64,000 bases of DNA. Source: an uncultured Pelagibacteraceae bacterium. GTDB lineage: Bacteria > Pseudomonadota > Alphaproteobacteria > Pelagibacterales > Pelagibacteraceae. The stretch spans positions 182,263-246,262 of the forward strand of contig CACMQA010000002.1 in NCBI GenBank assembly GCA_902615715.1, in the 5' to 3' direction. The notes under the pieces were generated by a model. The model did not search any database, was not told where the DNA came from, and was given only the letters and a program-made list of their open reading frames with translations. Shown here piece after piece: positions 1-17,873 of the stretch (positions are counted from its first letter, which is position 1; every line of letters begins with the position of its first letter). The position numbers and the translations under genes were made by a program.

Positions 1-382
1 AAAAGTAAAAAAAATTAGAGATATATTAAAAATATTCCAGATAAAATTTTCAAAAAAAAATAAAAATTGCTGTATTGAAGGAAGAGATATTTCTACAAAA
101 ATACTACCTTCTTCTGATTTAAAATTTTTTTTTAAATGCAGTTTACAGATAGCTGCTACTAGAAGATATAAAGAATTAAAAAAAAAAAATACTAAAATTA
201 AGTTTGAAGAAGTGAAAAAAGCCCTAAGAATAAGAAATATTAAAGATACTAAAAGAAAACACTCCCCTTTACTTAAACATAGAAATTCGATAGAAATCGA
301 CACCGGAAAATTAACTAAACAAGCAATGTTAGCAAAAATGTCCCGGTATGTAGAGAAAGTTATAGAAAAAAATGAAAAATGA
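1..382 (+). CDS. cmk: Cytidylate kinase, C-terminal part (5' truncated by window edge)
   Basis: Open frame from base 2 to TGA 380-382: ...CCIEGRDISTKILPSSDLKFFFKCSLQIAATRRYKEL...KHSPLLKHRNSIEIDTGKLT; overlaps rpsA start, the usual cmk-rpsA order. Confidence 0.85.
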   Translation, partial: KVKKIRDILKIFQIKFSKKNKNCCIEGRDISTKILPSSDLKFFFKCSLQIAATRRYKELKKKNTKIKFEEVKKALRIRNIKDTKRKHSPLLKHRNSIEIDTGKLTKQAMLAKMSRYVEKVIEKNEK

Positions 383-2084
383 ATTAGAAACAAAAAACCC
401 AAGTTCTCTTCACAAAGAATTCCAAAATTTACTAGATCAAGACTTCAAAGATAGAAAGCTTAAAGAAAACGAAGTAATTAGTGCTACAGTTTCAGAGATT
501 ACAAAAAACTTTGTAGTTGTTGATTGTAAAGCAAAAATGGAGGGCATGATCCCATTAGAAGAATTTAAAGTAAATGATGAGCTGTCGAAAATAAAAGTTG
601 GTTCAAAAATAGATGTATTTCTAGAAAGAATTGAAAGTTTCAAAGGAGAGATAATAATTTCCCGAGATAAAGCGAGAAAAATAAAAACTTGGAAAAAAAT
701 GGAAAAAGTTTTTGAGACACAAGAAGAAATGACGGGATACATCACAGGTAAAGTCAAAGGAGGTTTCATTGCAAATGTTGAGGGATTACCTTGTTTCATG
801 CCATCTTCTCAAATAGATGTAAAACCTTTAAAGAAGGTTGATCATTTGCTTAACACGCCAATAAAAGTTCTAGCTACTAGAATTGATAAAAATAGAGGAA
901 ACGTTTGTGTTTCTCGAAGAGCAGTGCTTGAGAAAAGTAAAAATGCAATTATTTCTGAGGCGCTTAAAAATATAAAAGAAGGTGACATAATAAATGATGC
1001 AATAGTTAAAGCGACCACTGATTGGGGAATATTTTTAGATATTAATGGAATAGACGCTCTTCTACACGTTTCTGATCTTAGTCATGGTAGAGTTAAGAAA
1101 CCATCTGATCTTGTAACAATAGGTCAAAAATTGAAAGTTAAAATTACTAAAATTGATGAAAAGACAAATCGTGTATCCGCATCTATCAAAGCTCTGACGG
1201 AAGACCCTTTTGCAAACATTGATAAGAAATATAAAATTGGCGAAACTTATGAGGGTGAAGTAACAAAAATAATGGACTATGGATGTTTTATAAAAATTGA
1301 AGATGGTATTGAAGGTTTAATACATAATTCAGAGTTAGATTGGACAAATAGAAACGTAAAACCAAGTAAGATTTTATCAGTTTCACAAAAAATTAAGTTT
1401 AAAATTGTAAATATGGATAAAGAAACAAAAAGAATTTCTTTATCTTATAAAGCAACTTTACCGAACCCATGGGATAAAATTAAAGATAAGATTGGTAAAG
1501 AAGTAAAAATGAAAATTACTGCTATCACAGACAAAGCAATATTCGGTGAACTTGTGGAATTTAAAATTTCAGGAATGCTCCACTATAAAGAACTCTCTTT
1601 CCAAGAGGATATAAAAGAACTTAAAAAATTCAAAAAAAATGATGTTGTCAGTGTTAAAATTATTGAAATCAAAGATGATAAAATTAAATTTTCAAAAAGA
1701 GCGCTAGAGAAAGATCCTCTAGATTGGTTTAAAGATAATAATAAAAAACTCGGTGATATCGTCACTACACGAGTCCATGAAGTTTTAAAAACTGGGGTTA
1801 AAGTTTCAGTTGATAAAGAGAAAAAACTAATAGTATTAATTAAGAAAAACGACCTAGCAAAAGAGACATCTGATGCTAGACCAGAAGTTTTTTCACAAGG
1901 GAATGCGCTAGACGCTAAAATTACAGAATTAGACTTCGTGCTTCGAAAAATAAAGTTAAGTGTAAAAGCTGCTCAAATTGATGAAGAAAAGTCTCTTATT
2001 GCAAAATTTGGTGAAGGGGCAACAAAATCTGGTGCGACCCTAAAAGGAATTTTTGAAAAAGCAATAGGTAAAAAAAAAAAGTAG
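372..2084 (+). CDS. rpsA: 30S ribosomal protein S1
   Basis: 570 aa with repeated S1 motifs (GVKGGFIANVEGLPCFMPSSQID, WGIFLDINGIDALLHVSDLS, YGCFIKIEDGIEGLIHNSEL). Confidence 0.97.
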   Translation: MKNELETKNPSSLHKEFQNLLDQDFKDRKLKENEVISATVSEITKNFVVVDCKAKMEGMIPLEEFKVNDELSKIKVGSKIDVFLERIESFKGEIIISRDKARKIKTWKKMEKVFETQEEMTGYITGKVKGGFIANVEGLPCFMPSSQIDVKPLKKVDHLLNTPIKVLATRIDKNRGNVCVSRRAVLEKSKNAIISEALKNIKEGDIINDAIVKATTDWGIFLDINGIDALLHVSDLSHGRVKKPSDLVTIGQKLKVKITKIDEKTNRVSASIKALTEDPFANIDKKYKIGETYEGEVTKIMDYGCFIKIEDGIEGLIHNSELDWTNRNVKPSKILSVSQKIKFKIVNMDKETKRISLSYKATLPNPWDKIKDKIGKEVKMKITAITDKAIFGELVEFKISGMLHYKELSFQEDIKELKKFKKNDVVSVKIIEIKDDKIKFSKRALEKDPLDWFKDNNKKLGDIVTTRVHEVLKTGVKVSVDKEKKLIVLIKKNDLAKETSDARPEVFSQGNALDAKITELDFVLRKIKLSVKAAQIDEEKSLIAKFGEGATKSGATLKGIFEKAIGKKKK

Positions 2085-2092
2085 AAAAATAA

Positions 2093-2374
2093 TTGTCGCG
2101 ACTAAAGCTAATAAAGCAGCTTAAAAAAAAAATCCCTCAACTTAATCACTCAGAATTAAACGCGATAATTAATAATTTTTCTAAAGGCATTTCTAAATCT
2201 TTAAAAAACGGTTATAATATAGAAATTCGGGGCCTTGGAAGGTTCTATTGCAAAAAATTAAAAGAAAATTTTAATGCAAGGAATCCAGCCACGAACGAAC
2301 TAATATATAAGCCAGAAAGAGTTAAAATAAGATTTAGGGCTTCAAAAAAATTAAATAAAGTCATTAATGAATAA
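2093..2374 (+). CDS. ihfB: Integration host factor beta / HU-family DNA-binding protein (TTG start)
   Basis: GLGRFYCKKLKENFNARNPATNELIYKPERVKIRFRASKKL matches the IHF/HU arm; follows rpsA. Confidence 0.9.
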   Translation: MSRLKLIKQLKKKIPQLNHSELNAIINNFSKGISKSLKNGYNIEIRGLGRFYCKKLKENFNARNPATNELIYKPERVKIRFRASKKLNKVINE

Positions 2375-3035
2375 AAAACCTAAAATATTTATAGCTTGCG
2401 ATACAACAAGTCTAACAAAAGTAAAAAAAATTATAAAGCAATCAAAATCAAACAAAATCAAAATTGGCTATAAATTTGGCTTAGAATTTATGAACTGTAA
2501 AAAAGGTAGGCAATTTATTTCCACGTTAAAAAATAAAATTATTTTTGTAGATTTAAAATTAAATGACACGGTAAACACAATGGTTTCAGCAGTGAAAGCA
2601 CTGAAAGATCTAAAAATAAATTATCTTACGGTTCATATTTCTTCTGGTCTAGCGGCTCTTAAAGCTGTAAAAAAAGTTTCAGGATTTACAAAAATTGTAG
2701 GAGTTACAACTTTAACTTCATTAAATAATAAAGATTTAAGAATTATTGGATACAATAAGTCAGTTAAAAATTTAGTGATCCATCAAGCAAAACTTGCAAA
2801 AAAAGCATCCTTGGATGGCTTAGTTTGTAGTCCTTATGAAGTAAGTACAGTAAGAAAAATTTTTAAAAAGGAAATCATTACCCCTGGGGTGCAAATAGGA
2901 AAAAGAAATTACGATCAAAAACGTTCTATGGAAGCTAAAAAAGTCAAATCTGATTGGTTAGTTATTGGAAGAGCGATTACAGCTCGAAGAAATATTAAGA
3001 AGAATATTCAAAATCTTGCTAAAGAATTAAAATAA
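2367..3035 (+). CDS. pyrF: Orotidine 5'-phosphate decarboxylase
   Basis: FVDLKLNDTVNT (DxKxxD-type motif), TPGVQIG, SDWLVIGRAIT. Confidence 0.9.
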   Translation: MNKKPKIFIACDTTSLTKVKKIIKQSKSNKIKIGYKFGLEFMNCKKGRQFISTLKNKIIFVDLKLNDTVNTMVSAVKALKDLKINYLTVHISSGLAALKAVKKVSGFTKIVGVTTLTSLNNKDLRIIGYNKSVKNLVIHQAKLAKKASLDGLVCSPYEVSTVRKIFKKEIITPGVQIGKRNYDQKRSMEAKKVKSDWLVIGRAITARRNIKKNIQNLAKELK

Positions 3036-3652
3036 TGAAAATAAAGATTTGTGGCTTAAATCCAATCAGGGATGTTCGGTTATGTATTGACCTTAAAGTA
3101 TCATTGTTAGGATTCGTTTTTTATAAAAAATCTCCACGAAACGTACTTCTGTCAGATATTAAAATGCTTTCTAATTATGACAAAAAAAGCTCATCTTTTG
3201 TAGCTGTAACAGTTAACCCAAGTAATGAATTCATTAAATCAAATCTAGTAGGAAATTTTGATTTTATTCAACTACATGGATCTGAAACAAGAGAACGGGT
3301 TGCAGAGATTAAAAATATGGGTCTTAAAACAATCAAAGCTATTAAAGTTATAGAAGAAAAAGATGTAGATTCCTATAAAGATTATGAAGGAGTAGCAGAC
3401 TTGATATTATTTGACTCAAATTCTATGGAAAAATCAAAAAGTATCCCAAGAGATTTGCTTTCAAAAATTCCTAAGGGTGATAAATTTTGTCTAGCAGGTG
3501 CTATAGACTCTAAAAATATGCCAGAATATAGTCAATTAGGCTTTAGTTTCTTAGATCTTTCTTCAGGACTAGAAAGAGAAAATTTAAAAGGATACAAAGA
3601 TCATCTTAAAATAAAAAAATTTATGGATAAAGTAAATGAGCTTGAGAATTAA
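3035..3652 (+). CDS. trpF: Phosphoribosylanthranilate isomerase
   Basis: KICGLNPIRDVRL, FDFIQLHGSE, LAGAIDSKN, DLSSGLE; next to trpB. Confidence 0.95.
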   Translation: MKIKICGLNPIRDVRLCIDLKVSLLGFVFYKKSPRNVLLSDIKMLSNYDKKSSSFVAVTVNPSNEFIKSNLVGNFDFIQLHGSETRERVAEIKNMGLKTIKAIKVIEEKDVDSYKDYEGVADLILFDSNSMEKSKSIPRDLLSKIPKGDKFCLAGAIDSKNMPEYSQLGFSFLDLSSGLERENLKGYKDHLKIKKFMDKVNELEN

Positions 3653-4877
3653 AAAAGGTATTCCACTAATTGATCAGTACGATAAAAATTGTATGTGGGG
3701 TGGAAAATTTGGTGGGAATTTCGTTCCAGAGACATTAAAAAAACCCATAGATGATTTAACTAAACTCTTCGAAAAATTAAGAAAAGATAAGAGCTTTTTA
3801 AAAGAAAGAGATGATTATTTTAAAAACTATGTTGGCTCACCTACGCCACTAATCCGTCTCGATAATTTAACAGATTACTTAGGTGGTGCACAAATTTGGG
3901 CTAAGGTTGTATCGGAAAATCCAGGGACGGCCCATAAAGTTTATAATGTCTTAGTTCACTGCTTAATGGCGAGACGTGCTGGCAAAAAATATGTCTGTAC
4001 GGACACAGGTGCGGGGATGAATGGAAAAAATTTAGCAATGGTTGGAAAGATGCTCGGATTGAAGGTTAAAATTTTTATGGGTTTAGTAGATATTAAACGC
4101 CAGAAAAAAAATGTTGATGTCATGAAGAAGTATGGAGCAGAAGTTGTTCCTGTTACTACTGGAAGTCAGACACTTGTTGATGCTGTCTCTGAATGCATGA
4201 GATATTTCGTGGCCAATTGCGATACCACACATTTAGTAGTTGGCAGTGCTGTGGGCCCAGCAATCTGGATCCGTATCTGTGCTTGGAGTGCGGCTCAGAT
4301 TTCAAGAGAGTTAATAGTTCAAATAAAGGAGGAGTTTGGAAAAATTCCAAAAAAATTAAAACTTTTAAATTGTATAGGCGGTGGTAGTTCTGCTTTAGGT
4401 TTTTGGAATGAGTTTATTGATTATGACAAAAAGCAAGTGGAGCTCATTGGGGTTGAAGCAGGTGGAAGTAAAAAATCAAAAAAACATGCAGCACCTCTTA
4501 CCAACGGATCAAAAATTGGAATACTACATGGATCGGCTCAATACGTAATACAAGATGCCGATGGACAAATTGGAGAGACAGAATCGATCTCGGCTGGGCT
4601 TGATTACCCGGGAATTTCCGCGATACATTGTTTCTTAAAAGATACAAAGCGAGCAAGATATACCTCCGCAACTGATGAAGAAGCTCTTAATGCATATAAA
4701 CTTGTTTCTAAATTTGAAAATATTTCACCATCTCTAGAACCTAGTCACGCTTTTGCCGAAGCAATCAGGATTGCGCCTAAATTAAGCAAGGATACAGTGT
4801 TGATTATAAATAGTTGTGGCCACTCACTAAAAGATTCAATTATAATTAAAAGTAAACTTGGTTATTACACAGAATGA
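3636..4877 (+). CDS. trpB: Tryptophan synthase beta subunit
   Basis: NPGTAHKVYNVL (PLP lysine HK), CIGGGSSALGFWNEF, GEAGG-like loop, 413 aa. Confidence 0.97.
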   Translation: MSLRIKKGIPLIDQYDKNCMWGGKFGGNFVPETLKKPIDDLTKLFEKLRKDKSFLKERDDYFKNYVGSPTPLIRLDNLTDYLGGAQIWAKVVSENPGTAHKVYNVLVHCLMARRAGKKYVCTDTGAGMNGKNLAMVGKMLGLKVKIFMGLVDIKRQKKNVDVMKKYGAEVVPVTTGSQTLVDAVSECMRYFVANCDTTHLVVGSAVGPAIWIRICAWSAAQISRELIVQIKEEFGKIPKKLKLLNCIGGGSSALGFWNEFIDYDKKQVELIGVEAGGSKKSKKHAAPLTNGSKIGILHGSAQYVIQDADGQIGETESISAGLDYPGISAIHCFLKDTKRARYTSATDEEALNAYKLVSKFENISPSLEPSHAFAEAIRIAPKLSKDTVLIINSCGHSLKDSIIIKSKLGYYTE

Positions 4878-5674
4878 AATCAGAAATTCAATTAGCTTTT
4901 GAAAATTGTAAAAAGGAAAAAAGACCAGCTCTCATCACTTATACTGTAGCTTCTGATCCAAATAAAAAGAAAAGTTTAGAGATTTTAAAATCACTGGCTA
5001 AGTACGCCGATATTTTGGAACTTGGTTTCCCGCACTCAACCCCAATTGGTGATGGAGGACAAATTCAAACTAGTTCTCATAGAGCAATTAAAAATGGTTT
5101 CAAAATGAAAGATGCATTTCAAATTGTAAAGAGTTTTAAAAAAACTGAGAAAAATAAACCGGTAATTCTTATGGGCTACTATAATATGATATTTCAATAC
5201 GGAGAAAATAAATTCCTAATTGATTGTAAAAAGTCAGGAGTAAGTGGAATTATTTGTGTTGATTTGCCTTGGCCAGAAAATAAAATTTTTGCAAAGAAAT
5301 GTAAGAAAAAGTCCATAGTATTTGTTCAGCTTCTTGCACCAACAACAACTAAAGAAAGAATGAAAAAAATTATTAGAGACTCAGATTCCATGAATTATTT
5401 AATTAGTATTTTGGGCACAACTGGAAGTAAACTAAAAGTCTCTCCCAAAAAAATACTAGAAAATTACAATAAGATTAAAAGAATCAATCCAAAGAAAAAC
5501 CTAGTAATTGGTTTCGGTATTACAGACTCCACGATTTCATCTTTTAAATCAGCCTCCGGCCTGGTAGTGGGTTCACTTTTATGCAAAACTATCACCAATT
5601 CACTCAAAATGAGGATAAACCCTGCCACTAAATTGCTTAAAACAGTGTATAACCTTAAGAAGAAAATAATTTAA
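4874..5674 (+). CDS. trpA: Tryptophan synthase alpha subunit
   Basis: PALITYTVASDPNKKKSLEILK, ELGFPHSTPIGDGGQIQ, GVSGIICVDLPW, GFGITDS. Confidence 0.96.
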   Translation: MKSEIQLAFENCKKEKRPALITYTVASDPNKKKSLEILKSLAKYADILELGFPHSTPIGDGGQIQTSSHRAIKNGFKMKDAFQIVKSFKKTEKNKPVILMGYYNMIFQYGENKFLIDCKKSGVSGIICVDLPWPENKIFAKKCKKKSIVFVQLLAPTTTKERMKKIIRDSDSMNYLISILGTTGSKLKVSPKKILENYNKIKRINPKKNLVIGFGITDSTISSFKSASGLVVGSLLCKTITNSLKMRINPATKLLKTVYNLKKKII

Positions 5675-5678
5675 GTAT

Positions 5679-6602
5679 ATGAATTGGATCAGTCGCTTTA
5701 TTAAACCAAAATTAAAATCTCTTTTTAAGAAAAAATCTGCTGAAAGAGATGATGCGTTATGGCAAAACTGCTCTTGCTCGAAACTTACACTTAAAGAAGA
5801 TTTCGCAAAAAATTTATTTGTATGTCCCTCTTGTAACAAGCCACACCCACTAACTAATAAACAAAGGTTTGATTTATTTTTTGATGACTCTGAGTACCAA
5901 ATTTTGGATTATGGAAGACCACCTGAGGATCCAATTACTTTTGAAGACACAAAAAAATATAAAGATAGAATTAAAAAAGCAATAGAATTAACTGGTGAAG
6001 ATGAAACTATGACAGCAGCATCAGGATTTTTAAATGCTGTACCAATCACAGTAGTCTCAATGAATTTTTCATGGATGGGTGGCAGTGTATCACCTAGAGT
6101 TGGAGAATGTTTTTTAAATGCTGCCGAACACGCAATCAAAAATAATCATAAAGCTTTCGTAATGTTTATTACTTCAGGAGGTATGAGAATGCAAACTGGA
6201 AATCTAAGTTTGCAACAAATGGGAAGAATGACGATTGCAATGCTTGAACTCAAAAAGAAAAATATACTTACCTTTTCGATAGCAGCTGGTCCGGTCTTGG
6301 GGGGAACCACAGCAAGTTTTGCTTCAGTCGCAGATCAAATTTATTCTGAGTCTGATGATTATTTATGGGGCTTCAGTGGAAAGCGTGTTATAGAACAAAA
6401 TATCAGAGAAAAATTAAGCGATGACGTGCAAAAAAGTAAATGGGTTTTTGATCACGGCCAAATTGATAAAATAATTCCAAGACATAAATTAAGAGATGAA
6501 ATTTACAATCTTCTATCTATACTTCTTAAATTAAAAGAAAAAGAGGAAGCAGAGGATAGAGGCAATGTCACGATCGATAAATCTATTAGGGAAATCGCCT
6601 AA
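5679..6602 (+). CDS. accD: Acetyl-CoA carboxylase carboxyltransferase beta subunit
   Basis: Zinc ribbon C-S-C...CPSC, SGGMRMQTGNLSLQQM, GPVLGGTTASFASVAD. Confidence 0.95.
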   Translation: MNWISRFIKPKLKSLFKKKSAERDDALWQNCSCSKLTLKEDFAKNLFVCPSCNKPHPLTNKQRFDLFFDDSEYQILDYGRPPEDPITFEDTKKYKDRIKKAIELTGEDETMTAASGFLNAVPITVVSMNFSWMGGSVSPRVGECFLNAAEHAIKNNHKAFVMFITSGGMRMQTGNLSLQQMGRMTIAMLELKKKNILTFSIAAGPVLGGTTASFASVADQIYSESDDYLWGFSGKRVIEQNIREKLSDDVQKSKWVFDHGQIDKIIPRHKLRDEIYNLLSILLKLKEKEEAEDRGNVTIDKSIREIA

Positions 6603-7857
6603 TAAACAAAACAATATAGAAAAACTTTTAAGTCTAAATCAGCATAAAATTAGACTAGGCCTTACTAGAATCAATAAAGTAATTAAAAAATTAAAGATTA
6701 CTCAAAAACCTAATATTAAATACCTTAGTGTAAACGGAACCTCAGCTAAAAATTCTATAATACAAATCTTTAAATCTATATTAATACAACATAGGCAAAG
6801 ATATGCGGCTACGTTCTCTCCTCACTTGGTTTCAATTACGGAGCGGTTCGAACATAATCAAAATTTCATCAAGTTAACCAAACTAAAGAATATATTGACT
6901 AAAGTGGCTAAATATAAAAACTTAACCCACTTTGAAAAATTAGTTGTTACCTTTGGAATATTTATCAAGGATCTCAAATTAGATTGGGCAATAGGGGAGT
7001 ATGGTTTATTTGGAAGATTAGATGGGATACGGGCTCTATTTAATAAACCTAATTATCATATTATTAGCCCTATTTCATGGGATCATCTTAATTGGACAAA
7101 AACAAAGAAAAGAAACTTTAAAACACTTAAAGAGATAGTTTTTGAAAAAACATCTTTTTTAAGATCAACAGTCTATGTGAGTAAACAAGACCCTAAAGTT
7201 TTAAAACTTATAAAATGTAACTTAATAAATAATCAATCTGATAAATTCTTTTACGGTTTAGACTTCAGAATAATTAAGAAAAATAAAAGATATTTCTACA
7301 AAGACAATCTTCATTATTTTCAAATAAAATCCAATTTAATTGGTGACTACATGTATGAAAATATGGCACCTGCTATTAAACTTGCTTTGGACAGTGACAT
7401 ACCAATCAGTTCTATAAATAAAGGTTTATTAAAAGTAGATATGAAAGGTAGGCTTCAAATCTTAAAAAAAGGGAAATTATTAAAAAATCTTAATTCGCAA
7501 GATAAGCTCATATTAGATGGAGCACACAATGCTCAACAATCTGAAAGATTAGTGAAGGTTATAAATGAATTTAAATTTAAAAATAAATATGCTGTTATAA
7601 GTATGATCAACTCAAAAGATCCTTTATCTTTCTTAAAACCATTTAGGGGTAAATTTAATAAGCTTTATTTCTTTGATAATCCAGAACAGAGTAATTTCAT
7701 TTCAAAGGAAAGGCTAAAGGCAGTGGCCGATAAACTTAAAATAAGATCAGAAATAAAAGATAGTATTCCAGAAACTCTTAAATCAAATCAATCAAAAGCT
7801 CTTTGGTTATGTACAGGCAGTTTATATTGGGTGGGATATCTATTAGGTAAAAATTAA
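6565..7857 (+). CDS. folC: Bifunctional folylpolyglutamate/dihydrofolate synthase (divergent P-loop)
   Basis: LGLTRINKVIKKL, FSPHLVSITERF, ISWDHLNW, LILDGAHNAQQ; position after accD; P-loop reads GTSAKNS. Confidence 0.87.
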   Translation: MSRSINLLGKSPNKQNNIEKLLSLNQHKIRLGLTRINKVIKKLKITQKPNIKYLSVNGTSAKNSIIQIFKSILIQHRQRYAATFSPHLVSITERFEHNQNFIKLTKLKNILTKVAKYKNLTHFEKLVVTFGIFIKDLKLDWAIGEYGLFGRLDGIRALFNKPNYHIISPISWDHLNWTKTKKRNFKTLKEIVFEKTSFLRSTVYVSKQDPKVLKLIKCNLINNQSDKFFYGLDFRIIKKNKRYFYKDNLHYFQIKSNLIGDYMYENMAPAIKLALDSDIPISSINKGLLKVDMKGRLQILKKGKLLKNLNSQDKLILDGAHNAQQSERLVKVINEFKFKNKYAVISMINSKDPLSFLKPFRGKFNKLYFFDNPEQSNFISKERLKAVADKLKIRSEIKDSIPETLKSNQSKALWLCTGSLYWVGYLLGKN

Positions 7858-8220
7858 ATATTTTCTTTAACCCAGTCGGATACTGTTTTGTAGTCAGATG
7901 CTCCTACTTTTTGTGAAACTACTTTTCCATTTTTTATAATGTAGAGTTGGGGAATAGATCTCACTCCAAAAGTTGTTGCTGTATTTACACCATCTTGGTC
8001 AATTACCATTGAAAAAAAATCCATTCCAGGATTTTCTGAAGAAACTTTTTCAACAATAGGTGTTAGAGCTTTACAAGGGCTAATTTTTGAGTTCACCCCT
8101 TGTTAAAAAACAAGGGGCCAATTAACCGCACCAGTCAGCCTCGAATTTGAGGCAAACCGGTTTAGAATTCTCTAAAACCTCTTTCTGATACATTTCATCT
8201 GAAATTTTTTTTATTGGCAT
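7854..8220 (-). pseudogene. trxA: Thioredoxin, interrupted inside the WCGPC active site by 46 nt (8079-8124)
   Basis: Minus strand 8220-8125: MPIKKISDEMYQKEVLENSKPVCLKFEADWCG then TAA (8124-8122); 8078-7854 resumes PCKALTPIVEKVSSEN...SIPQLYIIKNGKVV...WVKENI. Both halves otherwise intact. Confidence 0.85.
8096..8117. repeat. Perfect 9-bp hairpin inside the trxA interruption
   Basis: CCCCTTGTT (8096-8104) AAAA AACAAGGGG (8109-8117). Confidence 0.9.
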
Positions 8221-8263
8221 TAAATTTTTTTATTATTTTAAAAACTCAATGTCAACAAAGACA

Positions 8264-8422
8264 TTATTTATAGATAGCCAATTGTTTATAACATTGAGGT
8301 TTAGTTTTTGATCGGCCCACTTCAATTCTCTGACCGTTATCTTTGACGCAGTAAATATAATAGTAGAATTCATCATTATCATAATCTCTTACTTCCTCTA
8401 TTCTTATCTCGGTAATATTCAT
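8264..8422 (-). CDS. Small hypothetical protein, 52 aa
   Basis: MNITEIRIEEVRDYDNDEFYYYIYCVKDNGQRIEVGRSKTKPQCYKQLAIYK*, stop directly before next ORF start; below the ORF-track cutoff. Confidence 0.6.
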   Translation of the reverse strand: MNITEIRIEEVRDYDNDEFYYYIYCVKDNGQRIEVGRSKTKPQCYKQLAIYK

Positions 8423-8764
8423 TTATTTAAAAAGTTTAAGATATTCTTTGTCATTCCGACTCCATCTAAGATGATCAACGTATAAAATTTCCTTTTCTAA
8501 AACTTCAATTTCTTTTTCTATTTTATTCAACTCATACTTTAATTTAAAGTATTCAGCATACTTCAGTAATTTGGTAGGTAAATAAATCACAGATAAAAAA
8601 AAACTAATAATTGGATTGTTCCAAATCATATATTTATTTACTTCAGACCTAAGTGTTTTCCATCTTAATTTAATTAGATAATAAGTTGTCCATTCTTTAC
8701 GATTTCTTACGCATTCTTGAAGAGCATGATGGTATCGATTTAAATCTTTTTTAGGCAGCTTCAT
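8423..8764 (-). CDS. Hypothetical helical protein, 113 aa
   Basis: ORF overlapping the sbcB 3' end; central hydrophobic segment NNPIISFFLSVIYLPTKLL then a coiled coil. Confidence 0.6.
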   Translation of the reverse strand: MKLPKKDLNRYHHALQECVRNRKEWTTYYLIKLRWKTLRSEVNKYMIWNNPIISFFLSVIYLPTKLLKYAEYFKLKYELNKIEKEIEVLEKEILYVDHLRWSRNDKEYLKLFK

Positions 8765-10160
8765 ATTTTTTTTCTATTTCCATTACAAAATTATTGTATT
8801 CATCCAATTTTTTCATAATCTTTTCATCACTTTCATGTTTATTTCGCATATCGTCTACTGACCGATAAAATTCAGGAATAGTTGTCCATTGTTGTTTGTC
8901 AGTTGAAAACAAACGGCCAGCAATATTTTTCATAATTTCCTTTTTAAAATTTTCTGGAAGGACTTCTGGAGCCTCTTGATAAATTAACCTTTTTGCAAAA
9001 AAACTATATCTTTCATCACTAAATTTATCGATTAAAGAAACTTTCTCATTCCAATCAGTTGTGTGAAATTTCTCCATTAAAGAACTATCTGAAGGAGTAG
9101 CAAATCCACCTGAATAAAGAGTTTCTTCAGGTTGTAAGTTTTCTTTATTCACTGTTCTAGCAGATTTCTCCTCATGAATTTCATTAAGAATACTCCTTAT
9201 TTGTTCTAAAAATTCTGGTGAGTTATCTAAAATATGAGCTCTTCTTTTTATTTCTTCAGGGGAAATATTTTTATAAGGGTCTGTTTTTAAACCATAAGAA
9301 GGATTTAAAAGAACTGGCGATCGATTAGTTTTTATTGTCCTGATTATACGTGGTGGTTTTGAAATTGCTTTTTTAAGATCCTTATAGTCCATTTTAATAT
9401 AATCCTCTGGCGAATGTTGCAGATCCCAACTCATTGCCCAAGCAACATATACAGGGTGACTAAACAAAAATTTTGTTACGTACATTCTCAGTCGTCCATA
9501 AAACCACTCTGTATGGGTTACTACTTTATCTTTTGTCAGTAAATTTCCACAATCCTGACGGCTTAAAGTCATAAGTGACGAATCCCAAATGGGTTTAGTT
9601 TTTGGATTTTTAACAATGATCTCGGACAAAGTTTTTACAGCCTCCGTATCTGGTACGGCTCCGTGTGCATCTTGATGTTTCATTAAATCACTTAATTTAA
9701 AACTAGGATTACCTTTTTCTGTTAGTGGAGTTTCAATTACCGAATTATCAACTAACTTTGCTGCTCTAATGACTGGTAAAACATCTCCAATTTTATTTCC
9801 TTTTGTATTCAAAAAATAGGGTGGTTTTAAATATCTAAAAAAAGTTTTTGATAAAAAAACCCAATCAAATAATTGACTATTGTAACCCAAAAATACTACA
9901 GGCCCCCAACTTAAAAGTTTTTTTTCTAAAATCTGATTAGATTGGTACGGGCTGGGATTTTGTTTTAACCAATTTACATCAAAACCTGTAACATTAAGAG
10001 CTCCTAAGTTTGGCACCAAGCCTTCTTCTAATCGGTTTTTTATGTGAATTCGATCAAGCTCTTGAAGCTTGTCGTTGGTCAAAATAAAGCAGCCCTCGAG
10101 CACGCAGTCAAAAGATGTGTTCGCACCCGACGTTTCTAAATCTGCGAAAACAAAGTTCAT
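8751..10160 (-). CDS. sbcB: Exodeoxyribonuclease I
   Basis: DEDD exonuclease start VFADLETSGANTSFD, FLGYNSQLFDWVFL, QDAHGAVPDTEAV; 469 aa with ExoI-like C-terminus. Confidence 0.9.
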   Translation of the reverse strand: MNFVFADLETSGANTSFDCVLEGCFILTNDKLQELDRIHIKNRLEEGLVPNLGALNVTGFDVNWLKQNPSPYQSNQILEKKLLSWGPVVFLGYNSQLFDWVFLSKTFFRYLKPPYFLNTKGNKIGDVLPVIRAAKLVDNSVIETPLTEKGNPSFKLSDLMKHQDAHGAVPDTEAVKTLSEIIVKNPKTKPIWDSSLMTLSRQDCGNLLTKDKVVTHTEWFYGRLRMYVTKFLFSHPVYVAWAMSWDLQHSPEDYIKMDYKDLKKAISKPPRIIRTIKTNRSPVLLNPSYGLKTDPYKNISPEEIKRRAHILDNSPEFLEQIRSILNEIHEEKSARTVNKENLQPEETLYSGGFATPSDSSLMEKFHTTDWNEKVSLIDKFSDERYSFFAKRLIYQEAPEVLPENFKKEIMKNIAGRLFSTDKQQWTTIPEFYRSVDDMRNKHESDEKIMKKLDEYNNFVMEIEKKYEAA

Positions 10161-11218
10161 TTTATTTTTTTATCCACTAATTTAATTACATCTTCTTCGT
10201 CTTCTACAACGTCACTTGGTGGAAGTTTTTTGGGTGTAAGACCTCCAATTTTATTCATTCTAGAAATTTTACTTAGAAAGCTTCCTCTTCCATCTTTTAT
10301 CTTATCCATAACCTCAGTTACTCCGTCGGAAGATTTTTTAATTGCGTCCTGAGCTTTTTTTGCACTTGTGTAGATATCAACTGCTTGGTTACTGATCTTA
10401 GTAGCAAGGTCAATTACATTGGAAAGATTTTTAGATTGCTTGTCTGTATTCCAAAAATATTCCGCAACCTTTAAAGTGTAAAATAACATTGAAGGACCAC
10501 ATAAAGTTACCTTTTTACTTAAAGCATACTCCATTAACCGCTTTCCACCTTCGTTTGGTAGTTCAGTGATTGCTTTTTCATTTGGGCAAAACATAATAAT
10601 AGTATCTAATGTCTTTAGATCTTTTATCCCCTGGTAATCTTTTCGATTTAAAGTATCAATATGAGTTTTAAGCGACTGTTTATGTCTAGTAAGTGCATTC
10701 TCTCTTGTTGATTCATCATCAGAATTTGAGTATTCATCAAATGCTGTTAGACTTACCTTGCTATCAACTATTACCGATTTACCGTCTGGAAAATAAATAA
10801 TCACATCTGGTTGAAGATTTCCTTCATCTGTATTGAAGCTTTTTTGAGTTACAAATTCATGACCCTCTCTAAATCCAAGATTATTTGTTAAGATATTATT
10901 TAAAACCATCTCTCCCCAAACACCTTGTCGTTGACCTCCTCCAGAAATAAAAGTGTTTGCTATCCTTTCTGCCTCTTCTACGACTTTTGTTTGTCCAGTA
11001 TTCACTGCATTCAAAAGTGTCTGAACTGCGCCGCGATCTTCACTATTTGTTTTTTCATATGCTTCAATTTTTTCTTTAAGATCTTTTAGATTTTGAGCAT
11101 AGTCACTTGTATCCTCTTTTTTTTCCTCTTTAGAATAAAGAGATTTAGCTACAAAACCTAGCAGCAACCCTAGAAATAAACCAATTATTAATTCAATACT
11201 AAAAATATTTATCGTCAT
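10157..11218 (-). CDS. rmuC: DNA recombination protein RmuC
   Basis: N-terminal TM; GQRQGVWGEMVLNNIL, LQPDVIIYFPDGKSVIVDSKVSLTAFDEY. Confidence 0.93.
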   Translation of the reverse strand: MTINIFSIELIIGLFLGLLLGFVAKSLYSKEEKKEDTSDYAQNLKDLKEKIEAYEKTNSEDRGAVQTLLNAVNTGQTKVVEEAERIANTFISGGGQRQGVWGEMVLNNILTNNLGFREGHEFVTQKSFNTDEGNLQPDVIIYFPDGKSVIVDSKVSLTAFDEYSNSDDESTRENALTRHKQSLKTHIDTLNRKDYQGIKDLKTLDTIIMFCPNEKAITELPNEGGKRLMEYALSKKVTLCGPSMLFYTLKVAEYFWNTDKQSKNLSNVIDLATKISNQAVDIYTSAKKAQDAIKKSSDGVTEVMDKIKDGRGSFLSKISRMNKIGGLTPKKLPPSDVVEDEEDVIKLVDKKIK

Positions 11219-11752: not shown

Positions 11753-12898
11753 CTAAAAATTAAATTCTGGTTGATTATCCAAGCCTACCTCTCCTGTTAA
11801 GTTTAATTTTTTGCCAAAAGGCTCTATCATGATGTCATGATGTATATTAATTCTCTTTTTCCTTTTTTTCATAGATTTTTTAACTTCTAATAAGATTTTC
11901 TTTGCAGCTAAAACTGGTACGGCCATACCTATTTGTCTTCGCACGGACTCCTTGTTACCTAAAAAATCAAAAGAGTCATCGAATGTTTGTAGCCTAGCCC
12001 TTTCTCTATTTGTAAGGGCTCTATTGTGGTTGTAATGATAAACGTGAGTGCCTCCGCCACCGGATCCAGTAACAGTATAAGCTGGTTTATTTCTATCTAA
12101 TTTTTTATAAATGTGACTCATTCTGGCGCTCTTAACATTAGGCAATCCAAATTTATCGTCAATTTGCCAAACATTTTGACCTTCTTTTGTATTTTCTAAT
12201 CTAAGTAGTACTTCTTTAGAGTGCTTCGTAAATTCTTGATTTTTTGATTTTAATAAAGATTTTTTGCTTTGTTTTGTATCAGGCACACCGTCTTCTAATG
12301 CTGTTTTACATGTCACTTGTATAGAAGCTTTTTGAGGTTTGTTAAGTTGAATATTGTTCTTTTCAAAAAAATCTCCTCTATATCCAACTAAAATTAATCT
12401 ATGTCTTGTTTGAGGAATGCCATACTCCTCAAATTTATACTTATCTGCAAATATCTTGTAACCTTTGTTAGAACAGTTTGCAAAATCTCGCATAATTTTT
12501 GTAAAATTATTAAAAACTTCATTTTTTCCTACAATTGCCGTTACATTTTCTGCTACAAAAAATTTAGGCTGAAAATAGTTTAAAACTTTTGAAGCTGCTT
12601 TATAAAGAGGACCATATTCTCCCGTTAACCCCTTTTTCTTACCAACAATGCTGAAATCATTACAAGGAAAACCAAATAGAAGACCGTCTATATTTTTATT
12701 TAATTTCCTCATTTTATTATTGATAAAGTCTTTAAAAACATCTCCTTCAATAACCTCACAATCGGGATGATGTTTTTTAAATGTTTTGCAACTATCGGGG
12801 TGAATATCATTAGCCCAAACATGTTTAAAACCACCAGCTTTTTTAGCTCCTTCAGCAAAACCTCCTGGACCACAAAATAATTCACCTAATTTAATCAT
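11753..12898 (-). CDS. DNA (cytosine-5-)-methyltransferase
   Basis: GELFCGPGGFAEGAKKAG, GFPCNDFSIVGKKKGL (PC motif), FVAENVTAIVG (ENV), QTRHRLILVGYR, LTNRERARLQTF, RRQIGMAVPVLAAK. Confidence 0.96.
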   Translation of the reverse strand: MIKLGELFCGPGGFAEGAKKAGGFKHVWANDIHPDSCKTFKKHHPDCEVIEGDVFKDFINNKMRKLNKNIDGLLFGFPCNDFSIVGKKKGLTGEYGPLYKAASKVLNYFQPKFFVAENVTAIVGKNEVFNNFTKIMRDFANCSNKGYKIFADKYKFEEYGIPQTRHRLILVGYRGDFFEKNNIQLNKPQKASIQVTCKTALEDGVPDTKQSKKSLLKSKNQEFTKHSKEVLLRLENTKEGQNVWQIDDKFGLPNVKSARMSHIYKKLDRNKPAYTVTGSGGGGTHVYHYNHNRALTNRERARLQTFDDSFDFLGNKESVRRQIGMAVPVLAAKKILLEVKKSMKKRKKRINIHHDIMIEPFGKKLNLTGEVGLDNQPEFNF

Positions 12899-12934
12899 AA
12901 AAATATACGTATTGTATACACAAAATACATATAC

Positions 12935-12963
12935 TTGACAAGCTTATTTATTTAGAGTATTTA
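12935..12963 (+). promoter_or_regulatory. Candidate sigma70 promoter in the dcm/ATPase-side divergent region
   Basis: TTGACA (12935-12940), 17-nt spacer, TATTTA (12958-12963); ATG at 12970 would be near-leaderless. Confidence 0.45.
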
Positions 12964-12969
12964 TTAATC

Positions 12970-13260
12970 ATGGAAAAAGAAAAAAATATAGTGGATTTTA
13001 GAGGTCCGAGGAGAAAAACAAAGCAACTTTCCAAAGATAAAAAATTTAAATTGTTTTCTAATATCCGAATGCCAAAACTCCTCTCAGCGATGAACAGTGT
13101 TAAGAACCTAGCAAATTCTGAGTACTATACTTACACTCCTGAGGAAAAAAAAAAGATTATGAGAGACTACAAAGAAGCTTACAGAGCTATGAATGCTGCA
13201 TGGGAAAAAGCTGGCAAAGAAAAGAAAGCCTCTAATAAAAAATCATATTGGGAAGAATAA
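12970..13260 (+). CDS. Hypothetical basic protein, 96 aa
   Basis: ORF immediately followed by the next ORF (TAA ATG). Confidence 0.55.
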   Translation: MEKEKNIVDFRGPRRKTKQLSKDKKFKLFSNIRMPKLLSAMNSVKNLANSEYYTYTPEEKKKIMRDYKEAYRAMNAAWEKAGKEKKASNKKSYWEE

Positions 13261-13587
13261 ATGAGTTACAGAATAAATAAATTTAGAGAACGATTAGAAT
13301 ATTTAAACGAGTGGTTATTAGACACACTAAATTATGAAGAGCATAGAAATCTTAGTTTGAAAGCGACTTTAGACGTTTATGAGGATCAACCTTTAGTTTC
13401 TTTTTTATACAAGATTTACCTCCTGCCAATTTTGACTATTTCTTTCTTTAGCAAACTTAAAAATAGGTATTACATAAAAAAATGCGTTAAAGAAATGGCT
13501 CTAATTAAAAAAACAATTGAAGATCAGGAGCAATTTAGTCAAAAAATTCTAGAAAAATATAAGATTAAAAAAAATGAAAAAAATTAA
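13261..13587 (+). CDS. Hypothetical helical protein, 108 aa
   Basis: ORF with QPLVSFLYKIYLLP hydrophobic segment and coiled coil, similar in layout to 8423..8764. Confidence 0.55.
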   Translation: MSYRINKFRERLEYLNEWLLDTLNYEEHRNLSLKATLDVYEDQPLVSFLYKIYLLPILTISFFSKLKNRYYIKKCVKEMALIKKTIEDQEQFSQKILEKYKIKKNEKN

Positions 13588-13650
13588 CAGTTTGATGCAA
13601 ATAACAAAGAGGAAGATACTTTCTACGGTGAAAAGCTACATCGGATTTAA

Positions 13651-13705
13651 GGATTTGAAGTTTCTTCTCGCCATATTGCATCATGGTCATAACAACTTCA
13701 AATCC
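13651..13705 (+). repeat. Perfect 12-bp inverted repeat upstream of the GHKL ATPase gene
   Basis: GGATTTGAAGTT (13651-13662) and AACTTCAAATCC (13694-13705). Confidence 0.85.
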
Positions 13706-13727
13706 ATTAGCTACCAAAAGGATTAAA

Positions 13728-15860
13728 ATGAGAATCGCAAGAGAAATCATAAAAAAAGCAGAATGGCTCTTTAAGAAAGTATTAGAAGGTGATGATAGTA
13801 ATGACACTAAATTTGGTGATAAATTTCATTTACTAAGTTGTATAGCTGAATTTATTCAAAATGCATTAGATGCAGCTCAAAAGGGAGTTAAACAAGTTTT
13901 AATTAAGATTAGAACTGTAAATGTCAAATTTGAAGTTTTCGAAAAAGCTTTTCTCACAGATGAATTTAAAAAATTTTACACATCTTCAAATGCATACGAT
14001 CGTGGAGTTGATTTTGATGGAAAAGATATATTATGTTTAGTTTTAGAGGATTATAATACTACAGGTATTACGGGAGACCCTAGCGTTTATAAATCTAAAA
14101 TTGATGGAGAGAATAATAACATTCATGTTTTCAATAATGAAATTGGAGGAAATAGAAAAGTAAGTGACGCAAATAAAGGGGGAAGTGAGGGAGAAGGTAA
14201 ACAAACATTTTGTTACGCTTCTGATATTTCCTCATTTTTTTATTACACATTAAGAGAGGATGGTACTGATTTTTTCATGGGAATAAACTATTGCGGCACA
14301 TTTGATTTTGCTGGCGATACAATAAAGCCTCTTTCACATTTTGGAAATATAGTTAAACCACAGGATCAAAATGGAAGAAATTTTACCATTCCAATTAATA
14401 AAGCCGATGAAATTAAAAAATTAAAATCAATTTTTCAAATCGATAGGACTAAACCTGGCACAAGTATTATAATTCCTTATATAAATCGTAAAATATCTTT
14501 TGCTAAAATTAAAGAGAGAGTTTGCAATAGATATCGTGTGCCAATATTTAGAGGACAAGTTTCTGTACAAATACAAAAGGAAATAATTGATGAAAAAAAT
14601 ATAAGCGAAATTTATAAAAATAATTATTGTAAATCAGAAAATGAAAAGAAAATGTGTGTGGAATTTTTTGATTTCGTTAAGAAAATTGATGCTAACAATT
14701 ACATAGAATATCAAATAGGAATTACTCCAGGTGACACTAGAAACATTAGTAAGAATTCAAATGATGAAAAAATAAGGTCTGATTATAATAAGGGTGAAAT
14801 ATTAAAATTTAAAATTCCTGTTGAAATTAAAAAATATAAAATTGTAGATGATCGTAAAACTAATGAAGTAGAACTCATAAATTCATTTTTTAATATTTAC
14901 GCAAAAAAATTTTCTGAAATGAGCGAGCAGTTTAAATGGTGTGATACTATAAGAGGAAATATGCCAATAGTTAATACTAGAGTAAAAAGTTCAACTCATT
15001 ACCTAACAGATATTCAGGAAGAAGAAATGAGATTATTAGCAAAAACAGGTGAGACGGCAAATCATACAAGGATAAAAAAAGATCATTTTAAATATAGATC
15101 AAGATACAAAGAGGGTTCGCAAGAAGACGTAATAGATTTTATTAATTATGCATTTACTACTTTTGGAAATTATTTTGTATTAGACAATGAGGATTTAGAT
15201 CACTCAACAACTTTAGATTTATGTCAAGTAATTGCTGACTCAGAAATAGAAAAGCAAAAATATGCGCTATTAAACAAAAAAGGAGACTCGGAAGAAGATG
15301 AAGAAGAAGACACTATTAAAGTTAAACTTCCACCAATTCCAACTAAATTAAAAGCTTATCGGGCAAGAGAAATTAATAATGAAAAATTTAAAGGGTGGGA
15401 GGCAAAAGGTATTAAATACGATAAACAAAAAATTGATGAATTGGAAAAAGTTGCTGACACTTATATCGATGCTGCGGAAAAAACTTTAAAACAGGAAGGT
15501 TTAGCTGAAGATACAAAAAATGAGATAAAAGAAAATATTTTAAAAGCAAAAAGAAGAAAAGATGATTATTCATTATTTAAGAAAAAGAATTATACTTTTT
15601 ATCCAATAAAGATAAGATTAACTGCTGCTTTTGATGATGGTTCAAGCAATCCCTACGAATATTATGAAAAACCTGATTTTGATTTTAATAATAAAAAACA
15701 ATTTAAATATAATATTAAAGGTGATTTAAATCTATCTAAGCATGACGAAAATAAAATTGTTTTAGAGGGAGCCTCTGAAAATTTTGAATTCTCAGTCACA
15801 GGATTTGGTAATGATTGTGAAGAAAAAGTTTTAATCAATCATCAATGGGAAGCAATGTAA
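13728..15860 (+). CDS. GHKL-fold (MORC/MutL-like) ATPase of a restriction/defence module
   Basis: N box EFIQNALDAAQKGVK, D-box-like LVLEDYNTTGITGDPS, glycine-rich lid GGSEGEGKQTFCYASDISSFF. Start placed at ATG 13728 (MRIAREIIKK), after the hairpin; the track ORF begins at 13683. Confidence 0.8.
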   Translation: MRIAREIIKKAEWLFKKVLEGDDSNDTKFGDKFHLLSCIAEFIQNALDAAQKGVKQVLIKIRTVNVKFEVFEKAFLTDEFKKFYTSSNAYDRGVDFDGKDILCLVLEDYNTTGITGDPSVYKSKIDGENNNIHVFNNEIGGNRKVSDANKGGSEGEGKQTFCYASDISSFFYYTLREDGTDFFMGINYCGTFDFAGDTIKPLSHFGNIVKPQDQNGRNFTIPINKADEIKKLKSIFQIDRTKPGTSIIIPYINRKISFAKIKERVCNRYRVPIFRGQVSVQIQKEIIDEKNISEIYKNNYCKSENEKKMCVEFFDFVKKIDANNYIEYQIGITPGDTRNISKNSNDEKIRSDYNKGEILKFKIPVEIKKYKIVDDRKTNEVELINSFFNIYAKKFSEMSEQFKWCDTIRGNMPIVNTRVKSSTHYLTDIQEEEMRLLAKTGETANHTRIKKDHFKYRSRYKEGSQEDVIDFINYAFTTFGNYFVLDNEDLDHSTTLDLCQVIADSEIEKQKYALLNKKGDSEEDEEEDTIKVKLPPIPTKLKAYRAREINNEKFKGWEAKGIKYDKQKIDELEKVADTYIDAAEKTLKQEGLAEDTKNEIKENILKAKRRKDDYSLFKKKNYTFYPIKIRLTAAFDDGSSNPYEYYEKPDFDFNNKKQFKYNIKGDLNLSKHDENKIVLEGASENFEFSVTGFGNDCEEKVLINHQWEAM

Positions 15861-15861
15861 T

Positions 15862-16740
15862 ATGGCTCAAACGACTATAGAAATTTTCGAGGAAAAACGG
15901 ATTACTTACAAAGGTAAAGATCCAGATCTGAACATAAGTTGTGTTAAAGAAGATGAAACTGGAATCGTGGTAGAGGTTAAAATTAATCTTAGAAGACATA
16001 ATTTCGGGGATAACTGCGATGTATTTTTTCAAACTTATGACAATAGAGGTGCAGGGAATAAGCCAAATAAAATGGGTAAAATCAAAGAACTAAATCAAGA
16101 AGAAAAAAATGTTTTTCAATACCCTATTAGTAATATTAAAAAAGAGGATGCCAAATTTAGAGTGATAGTTTCAGAACCTGGAAATTTTAAAGACTCCAAA
16201 GTTATAAGATTAATTGGAAAAGCAGAAATACCTGGCTTTGATGACGAAAATGATAAATCTAAACAAAAAATAAATTCTTTATTACCTACTAAAGAACTAG
16301 ATATTGGCACTCCATTTATGGTTGATATGTCTCCCAACCGTCTTCCATATCTTGTACTTAAAAGAGGTTGTAATATTAAATACAAGTTAGACTCTAATTC
16401 TGACCCAGTACAAAAATCATTAATTTATACTTCTGCTATAAGAGCAATAATTGAAGCGTACCTAACAGACCACCGATATGAAGATTGTATTTACAAAAAA
16501 CAATGGTTCGATCTTATTTCAAAAAAAACCGGTGAGTCAGTTGATGAATTCCCTTCAAACTATGTTTCTATAGATGACGGTAAAACGGTTATTGAGAGTA
16601 ATTGCAAAAACTGGATAGAGTCAGTTACGGAGACAATGGTAAGTAATTTACCCGATAGCAATGGAAAAAAACTTATTGATAAGCATAAGGAAGCTAATTT
16701 TAGAAATAATGAGATAACTTATAGCGAAGAAGAGGGCTAA
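15862..16740 (+). CDS. Unknown protein, 292 aa, in the ATPase/Vsr operon
   Basis: ORF separated by 1 nt from the ATPase gene and 1 nt from the next; no family recognised. Confidence 0.75.
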   Translation: MAQTTIEIFEEKRITYKGKDPDLNISCVKEDETGIVVEVKINLRRHNFGDNCDVFFQTYDNRGAGNKPNKMGKIKELNQEEKNVFQYPISNIKKEDAKFRVIVSEPGNFKDSKVIRLIGKAEIPGFDDENDKSKQKINSLLPTKELDIGTPFMVDMSPNRLPYLVLKRGCNIKYKLDSNSDPVQKSLIYTSAIRAIIEAYLTDHRYEDCIYKKQWFDLISKKTGESVDEFPSNYVSIDDGKTVIESNCKNWIESVTETMVSNLPDSNGKKLIDKHKEANFRNNEITYSEEEG

Positions 16741-16741
16741 A

Positions 16742-17527
16742 ATGAAAATAAGAGAATTTACAGAAGAAGGAAATCAACAATTTCATCTATTATACAAAAG
16801 AATTAAAGAGTCCGTATTAAATTATAATAAAGATATAGAAAAGGGCTACACACCAAATTTAAAGAAAAAGATGAAAGAATTGGTAGCTGATCCCAACCTT
16901 TCGATTGATATAGGAGGGACAGTAGAATTAAAAATTCCAAGCTCTGATAGTCAGTTTTTATTTGGAAAATATATCGACGAAGTTTTAAAAGAACATAATG
17001 AGTTAAAAATTTTTAATAATGAAAAATTATGGAATTGGTTATCGGCTTATTTCTTTGACATTATTTTTCATAAAAAAGCTAAAGGAATTTCTGAACATAG
17101 ATATCTGCTTAGTGATAGTTGGTTTACAAAATATAGACATTTAGTCCGAACGCCATGGTATATGCATAAAATTTACAATGAATCTTCAAAATTATTTTTA
17201 CATGGAGCTACTTATTTTGGAGGTAACTATATGGAGCAATGGATAAGCCATCGAATAAATGAAAAATTTACAAAGGCAGCTGACATCGCTTTTGATCTAT
17301 ACTACGATAAAAAAAATGATGAACCAAAATCTGGTTATTCTCACAAGTTTATCAGTAAAAAGGTTACTGGATCAAAGAAAAAAGTAAAAACTCTTGTACC
17401 AGGATCTTTAGGAAGATTAATAGACAAATTAAACCAATATAACGAAATTTATAATATCTGGGAAATGGATAGAAAAGAAATTATTCAACTTTTGCCTAAA
17501 GAATTCGATGAACTCAAAGAACACTAA
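16742..17527 (+). CDS. DUF6339-like protein, 261 aa
   Basis: RYLLSDSWFTKYRHLVRTPWYMHKIYN...GGNYMEQWISHRINEKF resembles the DUF6339 family; family assignment from memory. Confidence 0.55.
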   Translation: MKIREFTEEGNQQFHLLYKRIKESVLNYNKDIEKGYTPNLKKKMKELVADPNLSIDIGGTVELKIPSSDSQFLFGKYIDEVLKEHNELKIFNNEKLWNWLSAYFFDIIFHKKAKGISEHRYLLSDSWFTKYRHLVRTPWYMHKIYNESSKLFLHGATYFGGNYMEQWISHRINEKFTKAADIAFDLYYDKKNDEPKSGYSHKFISKKVTGSKKKVKTLVPGSLGRLIDKLNQYNEIYNIWEMDRKEIIQLLPKEFDELKEH

Positions 17528-17873
17528 GCCCGAAATAATTGTCAGAAAAAAATTATTTTCTAAAGGATATCGTTACAAAATACATGATAAAAAGCTTCCA
17601 GGAAGACCTGACATTGTTATACCTAAACTAAAAATAATCATTAATGTACATGGTTGCTACTGGCACTATCATGGTTGTGAAAAAAGTCGATTACCAAAAA
17701 CTCGAGCTGAATATTGGCTAACAAGATTAGAGAATAATAAGAAAAGAGACTTCTTCAATAAACAAAAATTAATTAAACTTGGTTGGAAAGTTATTGATAT
17801 TTGGGAATGTACTTTAAACAAAAGCAATATTGCCAAAACCTTTGAACGTTTAGAACATCAAATAGCTGTTTAA
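17508..17873 (+). CDS. vsr: Very-short-patch-repair (Vsr) type endonuclease
   Basis: NTKPEIIVRKKLFSKGYRYKIHDKKLPGRPDIVIPKLKIIINVHGCYWHYHGC...GWKVIDIWEC; overlaps upstream ORF by 20 nt. Confidence 0.93.
   Translation: MNSKNTKPEIIVRKKLFSKGYRYKIHDKKLPGRPDIVIPKLKIIINVHGCYWHYHGCEKSRLPKTRAEYWLTRLENNKKRDFFNKQKLIKLGWKVIDIWECTLNKSNIAKTFERLEHQIAV

Follow-up and report, generated by a model that had tools for sequence, protein, structure and literature searches.

The thioredoxin gene trxA of an uncultured Pelagibacteraceae bacterium is split by a 46-nt non-coding insert that begins with a stop codon and contains a predicted hairpin, and inserts of similar design recur in trxA of related genomes. The insert is interpreted as a programmed translational bypassing element of the phage T4 gene 60 type, located in the single housekeeping trxA of a SAR11 lineage. 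A probability of about 0.72 is given to this reading, which rests on sequence evidence only, without RNA, ribosome-profiling, proteomic or reporter data.

The split trxA gene

The stretch of DNA analysed (the window, 64,000 nt) represents bases 182263-246262 of contig C2 of the source genome (G000; 1.06 Mb, 95% complete). The interrupted trxA gene is on the minus strand and extends from the ATG at 8220 to the stop at 7854. Its 5′ half, MPIKKISDEMYQKEVLENSKPVCLKFEADWCG (8125-8220, 32 codons), ends in GGT (8127-8125), the inferred take-off codon. The insert (8079-8124) follows, from TAA (8124-8122) through the inferred landing triplet AGC (8081-8079). The 3′ half, PCKALTP...WVKENI (7854-8078), starts at the resume codon CCT (8078-8076), carries the cis-Pro motif RSIPQ, and ends with the stop codon at 7856-7854. 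Read on the minus strand, the order is ...GACTGGTGCGGT (5′ half), TAATTGGCCCCTTGTTTTTTAACAAGGGGTGAACTCAAAAATTAGC (insert) and CCTTGTAAAGCT... (resume). Within the insert, CCCCTTGTT-TTTT-AACAAGGGG (8117-8096) forms a stem of 9 bp with a 4-nt loop, the C-rich arm being 5′ and the G-rich arm 3′. This hairpin occurs only once across the window, and 100 shuffles gave 0 matches with up to 3 mismatches allowed.

The preliminary description of this DNA had placed a 46-nt stop-plus-hairpin insert between WCG and PCK, and the position (8124-8079) is exact to the base. It had also stated that excision of the 46 nt restores a normal thioredoxin of 107 aa. The joined reading does match TIGR01068 (E 4.8e-23, 81.2 bits, which falls below the curated cut-off of 96.8 bits), but its length is 106 aa. 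The 80-aa open reading frame listed there, with a GTG start inside the gap, is located at 8096-7854 of the minus strand; it is probably not the real product, as its start is missing from most carriers.

Recurrence and common design of the inserts

The search of related genomes for the insert that the preliminary description had called for revealed 14 further carrier genomes. Thus 16 inserts are found in 15 Pelagibacteraceae genomes (source genome included) that belong to several genera; the related records carry the label Pelagibacteraceae and derive from single cells. The presence of homologous or analogous inserts in 15 genomes of the same family excludes chance, an error of sequencing and an artefact of assembly. 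When the proteins of 169 genomes of the genus were searched, trxA proved to be split at the same position as in the window in G094, G101, G132 and G140, where the homologues of the window insert measure 46, 45, 41 and 43 nt, respectively; close relatives of the protein in G076, G103 and G045 are insert-free. The other carriers come from wider searches: G493 (L064, AG-404-L13), G458, G341, G360, G307, G034, G037, G061, G115 and G141. In G493 two inserts are present in one trxA gene (L064 5001-5401), and two jumps would be needed there to yield one 105-aa protein. A pattern search for the site-1 insert in 399 genomes of the G458 genus gave chance matches only.

Fourteen of the 16 inserts are at WC^G or WCG^P, one is at DFW^AEWC, and one is beside the cis-Pro motif; four boundaries are used, all within trxA. 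Gap lengths are 28, 38, 41, 43, 45, 46, 48, 51 and 52 nt, with all three frames represented. It should be noted that the carriers are related and their elements not all independent, so that these counts are not independent trials. A TrxA tree calls for no fewer than three changes of label (insert-bearing or insert-free), or five at best, and carriers are on long branches. The tree is weakly resolved, the protein having only 105 residues, and recurrent gain or transfer of the inserts, as suggested by it, is likely rather than established.

The inserts display a common design. In all 16, the inferred take-off codon is followed by the first stop codon at an offset of 0 or 3, i.e., directly in the window and four other elements and one codon further on in the remaining 11; TAA, TAG and TGA are all used. 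The C-rich arm always precedes the G-rich arm (16/16). The longest C run, or the start of the C-rich arm, is at offset 6-7 in 14 elements, and the G run or start of the G-rich arm is at offset 22-25 in 15, followed by a 3′ tail of variable length up to the resume codon. Folding z-scores range from -2.1 to -7.5. The window element (z = -2.6) folds only moderately better than its shuffles. The take-off codon is itself inside the stem in the G360, G341, G034 and G115 types and at site 2 of G493.

Compensatory changes are found in two homologous groups and involve four pairs: in G000/G101/G094/G132/G140, pairs 6 and 7 are preserved by double changes, as are pairs 1 and 14 among members of the G034 group. 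Covarying pairs were counted by script, because MAFFT had shifted the stems, and the support for some comes from no more than two sequences. Artefacts of single-cell amplification cannot account for inserts that are homologous and carry compensatory changes across separate species.

The second border also shows a bias. G occupies position 2 of the triplet directly before the resume codon in 16/16 elements, and this triplet is GGN in 7/16; among gap triplets the corresponding shares are 22% and 10%. The preliminary description had cautioned that AGC is an imperfect match for tRNA-Gly, and the caution still applies to the window and to its two nearest relatives, where GGT and AGC mismatch at the first position. 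In six other elements (G140, G132, G493 site 2, G360, G307 and G115) take-off and landing codons are read by the same Gly tRNA, and in G140 they are identical (GGT-GGT). Five elements, in G341 (L257), G034, G037, G061 and G141 (L264, L265, L266 and L268), have CGA before the stop and are ambiguous: take-off may be from TGT, with WCGPC as product, or from CGA, with WCRPC. Neither reading gives a matched pair throughout. CGA is decoded by an inosine-containing tRNA-Arg through a weak I-A pair, and this weak pairing might favor take-off there, the product then being WCRPC.

Gaps in three frames and a conserved hairpin are also accounted for if the insert is removed from the RNA, by an unknown very small intron or by hairpin-directed cleavage and joining, so that the mRNA is continuous. 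Boundary sequences, however, are not shared at either end across elements. In addition, an Rfam search of the insert site detected no family, all matches being far below gathering scores. RNA removal also leaves unexplained the stop within two codons in 16/16 elements and the Gly codons at both ends, and to our knowledge no bacterial intron of such small size has been described. It is considered unlikely.

The differences in frame and stop among carriers also bear on decoding of the stop itself. Gaps of 28, 38, 41, 43, 46 and 52 nt shift the frame, all three stop codons occur, and the window combines TAA with a frame change; stop readthrough, selenoprotein synthesis and simple frameshifting thus fail. 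No suppressor tRNA is present in G000, which has both tRNA-Gly GCC and UCC.

Another possibility is a functional enzyme assembled from two pieces, the N-terminal peptide of 32-34 residues and a C-terminal fragment with its own initiation. Fragments of E. coli thioredoxin are able to complement each other in vitro, and an in-frame GTG or ATG is present inside the gap of the window, G094 and G140. The start codon is nevertheless not conserved among G000, G101 and G094. G132, G493 (both sites), G360, G307, G341, G458 and G115 have no possible start (ATG, GTG or TTG) in frame between the resume codon and the last stop before it, and G493 would require three pieces. With 8 of 16 elements lacking a start codon, internal re-initiation is no general answer, and a split enzyme is regarded as quite improbable.

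Selection on trxA and confinement of the inserts

The preliminary description had noted that both halves appear undamaged, and had left room for a recent disabling insertion, possibly with imperfect target duplication. A dead or dying gene would be consistent with the early stop codon, the long branches of carriers in the TrxA tree, and the several related genomes in which no TrxA was found. Nei-Gojobori estimates for three sets of related carriers point the other way: dN/dS is mostly ~0.03-0.15 in both halves, despite substantial synonymous divergence. In the G132-G140 comparison, dN vs dS for the two halves is 0.08 vs 0.76 and 0.06 vs 1.55. The two halves give 0.013 vs 0.38 and 0.012 vs 0.34 for G000-G101, and 0 vs 0.12 and 0.021 vs 0.41 for G360-G307. 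By these estimates, strong purifying selection acts on both halves of the protein. The decaying relatives that would have refuted the earlier proposal are thus replaced by insert-bearing relatives under selection.

The other refuting observation, a second intact trxA, was not made either: in each carrier searched, the source genome among them, only one TrxA could be detected, and no other WCGPC protein is present among G000 open reading frames of at least 90 aa. In length (mostly 171-177 aa) and sequence (WCAPC in G000), other thioredoxin-fold matches in the carriers tested look DsbE/TlpA-like. Thioredoxin reductase, TrxB, is present and intact. Together with the identical site and design in many species and the absence of effects on any other gene compared, these results make a dead gene very improbable, and a recent disabling mutation is rejected.

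In G012, G113 and others of the genus, a profile search (E 0.1; genomes ~87% complete) gave DsbE/TlpA-like matches only and no TrxA; such genomes may carry a lost or more heavily interrupted trxA.

To look beyond trxA, ~600 shared open reading frames were cross-compared each way between G000 (whole) and G493 (~0.8 of 1.2 Mb) by tblastn, with the trxA insert as positive control, and no stop-bearing insert was found in another gene. A mobile element present in many genes is rejected, as none was seen outside trxA among these open reading frames. Other GC-rich hairpins that were inspected are terminators or chance features of coding sequence. A phage origin also lacks support: IMG/VR does not contain the element pattern, and the 80 viral thioredoxins retained for comparison match without a large gap. 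Ribosomal protein L9 affects hopping, and its loss was considered. L9 is present in G000, G094, G132, G140, G034, G061, G360, G307, G341, G458 and G493; it is absent only from incomplete genomes, both insert-bearing and insert-free. No 3′ end of the 16S gene could be located in G000.

The gene order exoI-trxA-folC-accD is common to carriers and insertless relatives wherever the fetched stretch reaches. Around trxA (window 372-11218), genes that are usually conserved have strikingly diverged between G000 and G493: identity is 36% for rpsA, 36% for an HU/IHF-like gene, 35% for trpF, 38% for accD, 31% for folC, 37% for exoI and 22% for rmuC, compared with 68-69% for trpA/trpB; the median for 600 open reading frames is 52%. 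The folC product has no Pfam match at E 0.001. Identity of exoI to G000 is 28% in G094 and 47% in G101, while the C half of trxA is 97% identical; thus the variable region ends at trxA. Near trxA, window 11753-17873 has genes for a cytosine methyltransferase, a Vsr nickase, a 725-aa protein like the PADLOC candidate PDC-M33A, and unknown open reading frames, and is likely a defence island.

Proposed bypassing and comparison with known systems

With re-initiation, readthrough or frameshifting, and pseudogene decay failing, ribosome skipping and RNA removal remain. Under the preferred reading, bypassing, the ribosome would translate as far as WC-Gly and stall there, with the stop occupying the A site or the next codon and the hairpin folding at or over the take-off codon. 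The peptidyl-tRNA, mostly tRNA-Gly, would release its codon, the ribosome would slide ~28-52 nt beyond the hairpin, and the tRNA would re-pair, often loosely, with the NGN triplet (often GGN) directly before the resume codon. One continuous thioredoxin would result. Bypassing itself, the tRNA used at take-off and landing, the efficiency, and any regulatory purpose are inferred, whereas the sequences directly show the anatomy and its recurrence, covariation in the hairpin, selection on both halves, the lack of a substitute TrxA, and confinement to trxA in two carriers.

Three features by which bypassing is recognized are present: one protein encoded over two conserved stretches with a short non-coding gap between them, a stop where take-off would occur, and a take-off stem loop in the mRNA (a predicted hairpin with compensatory changes and fixed position). 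A match between take-off and landing codons is absent in the window and present in some relatives (identical in G140), and the GGT/AGC mismatch is the main weak point of the bypassing reading. In the open-access literature (subscription papers were outside the scope), no reports of bypassing or frameshifting with Pelagibacter or thioredoxin were found.

The insert may instead be mainly a regulatory truncation or attenuator that lets through just a minor share of ribosomes, perhaps depending on conditions. A strong hairpin with a stop is consistent with this, and the restriction of the recurrence to a single gene points to a use more than to damage that is tolerated. There is no evidence on expression, and the proposal differs from bypassing only in efficiency and purpose; as the principal role it is thought improbable.

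Established cases of bypassing come from a single phage gene and a single group of yeast mitochondria. If the present reading is correct, 16 natural elements that vary in length, frame, hairpin and landing codon provide comparative data on the requirements of bypassing; the gene, which many would take to be missing or broken, is concealed by automatic annotation; and the question arises why thioredoxin is singled out. It is proposed tentatively, and may well not hold, that bypassing became established repeatedly in trxA of bacteria that are among the most abundant in the ocean, and that its retention reflects regulation or protection of the thioredoxin supply rather than mere neutralization of an insertion. 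T7-kind phages take host thioredoxin for their polymerase, and protection against thioredoxin-using phages as the purpose is speculation.

Among known systems, the Streptomyces phage Hau3 terminase, for which bypassing at UUA is named as a possibility only (PMC5009743), shares possible bypassing in a bacterial context, but in a different gene and with a different signal, a UUA codon. Mitochondrial byp elements of Magnusiomyces capitatus occupy 81 sites in 12 of 15 genes (PMC5009743, PMC8811140). Like the trxA elements, they are short, GC-richer inserts in AT-rich genes, vary in frame and length, and do not always have matched take-off and landing codons; thus loose matching can occur. The trxA elements differ in that they affect one gene rather than 12 of 15 and have a stop at the start of every element. 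In addition, the two carrier genomes compared (G000 and G493) gave no indication of further copies outside trxA, and the many dispersed copies in many genes that characterize byps are therefore lacking.

The similarity to T4 gene 60 was proposed in the preliminary description and is strengthened by the comparison across carriers, still without evidence at the protein level. Gene 60 (PMC5009743, PMC11194080) and the window share a gap of ~50 nt, a Gly take-off codon with a stop right after it (GGT TAA in the window), a hairpin at take-off, a G-rich stretch upstream of landing, and one protein from two disjoint open reading frames. The trxA elements differ in residing in a chromosomal housekeeping gene of many species, in a landing codon that is often not identical to the take-off codon, in one sense codon between inferred take-off and stop in 11/16, and in a nascent chain that offers only ~32 residues (46 in gene 60) for any nascent-peptide signal of the KKYK kind. 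The take-off stem loop of gene 60 includes the take-off codon (PMC5009743, PMC11194080), and sliding is processive up to 56 nt (PMC11194080), a limit that exceeds all trxA gaps (28-52 nt). Gly codons at both borders, the early stop, the take-off hairpin and gaps of <56 nt thus fit what is known of gene 60.
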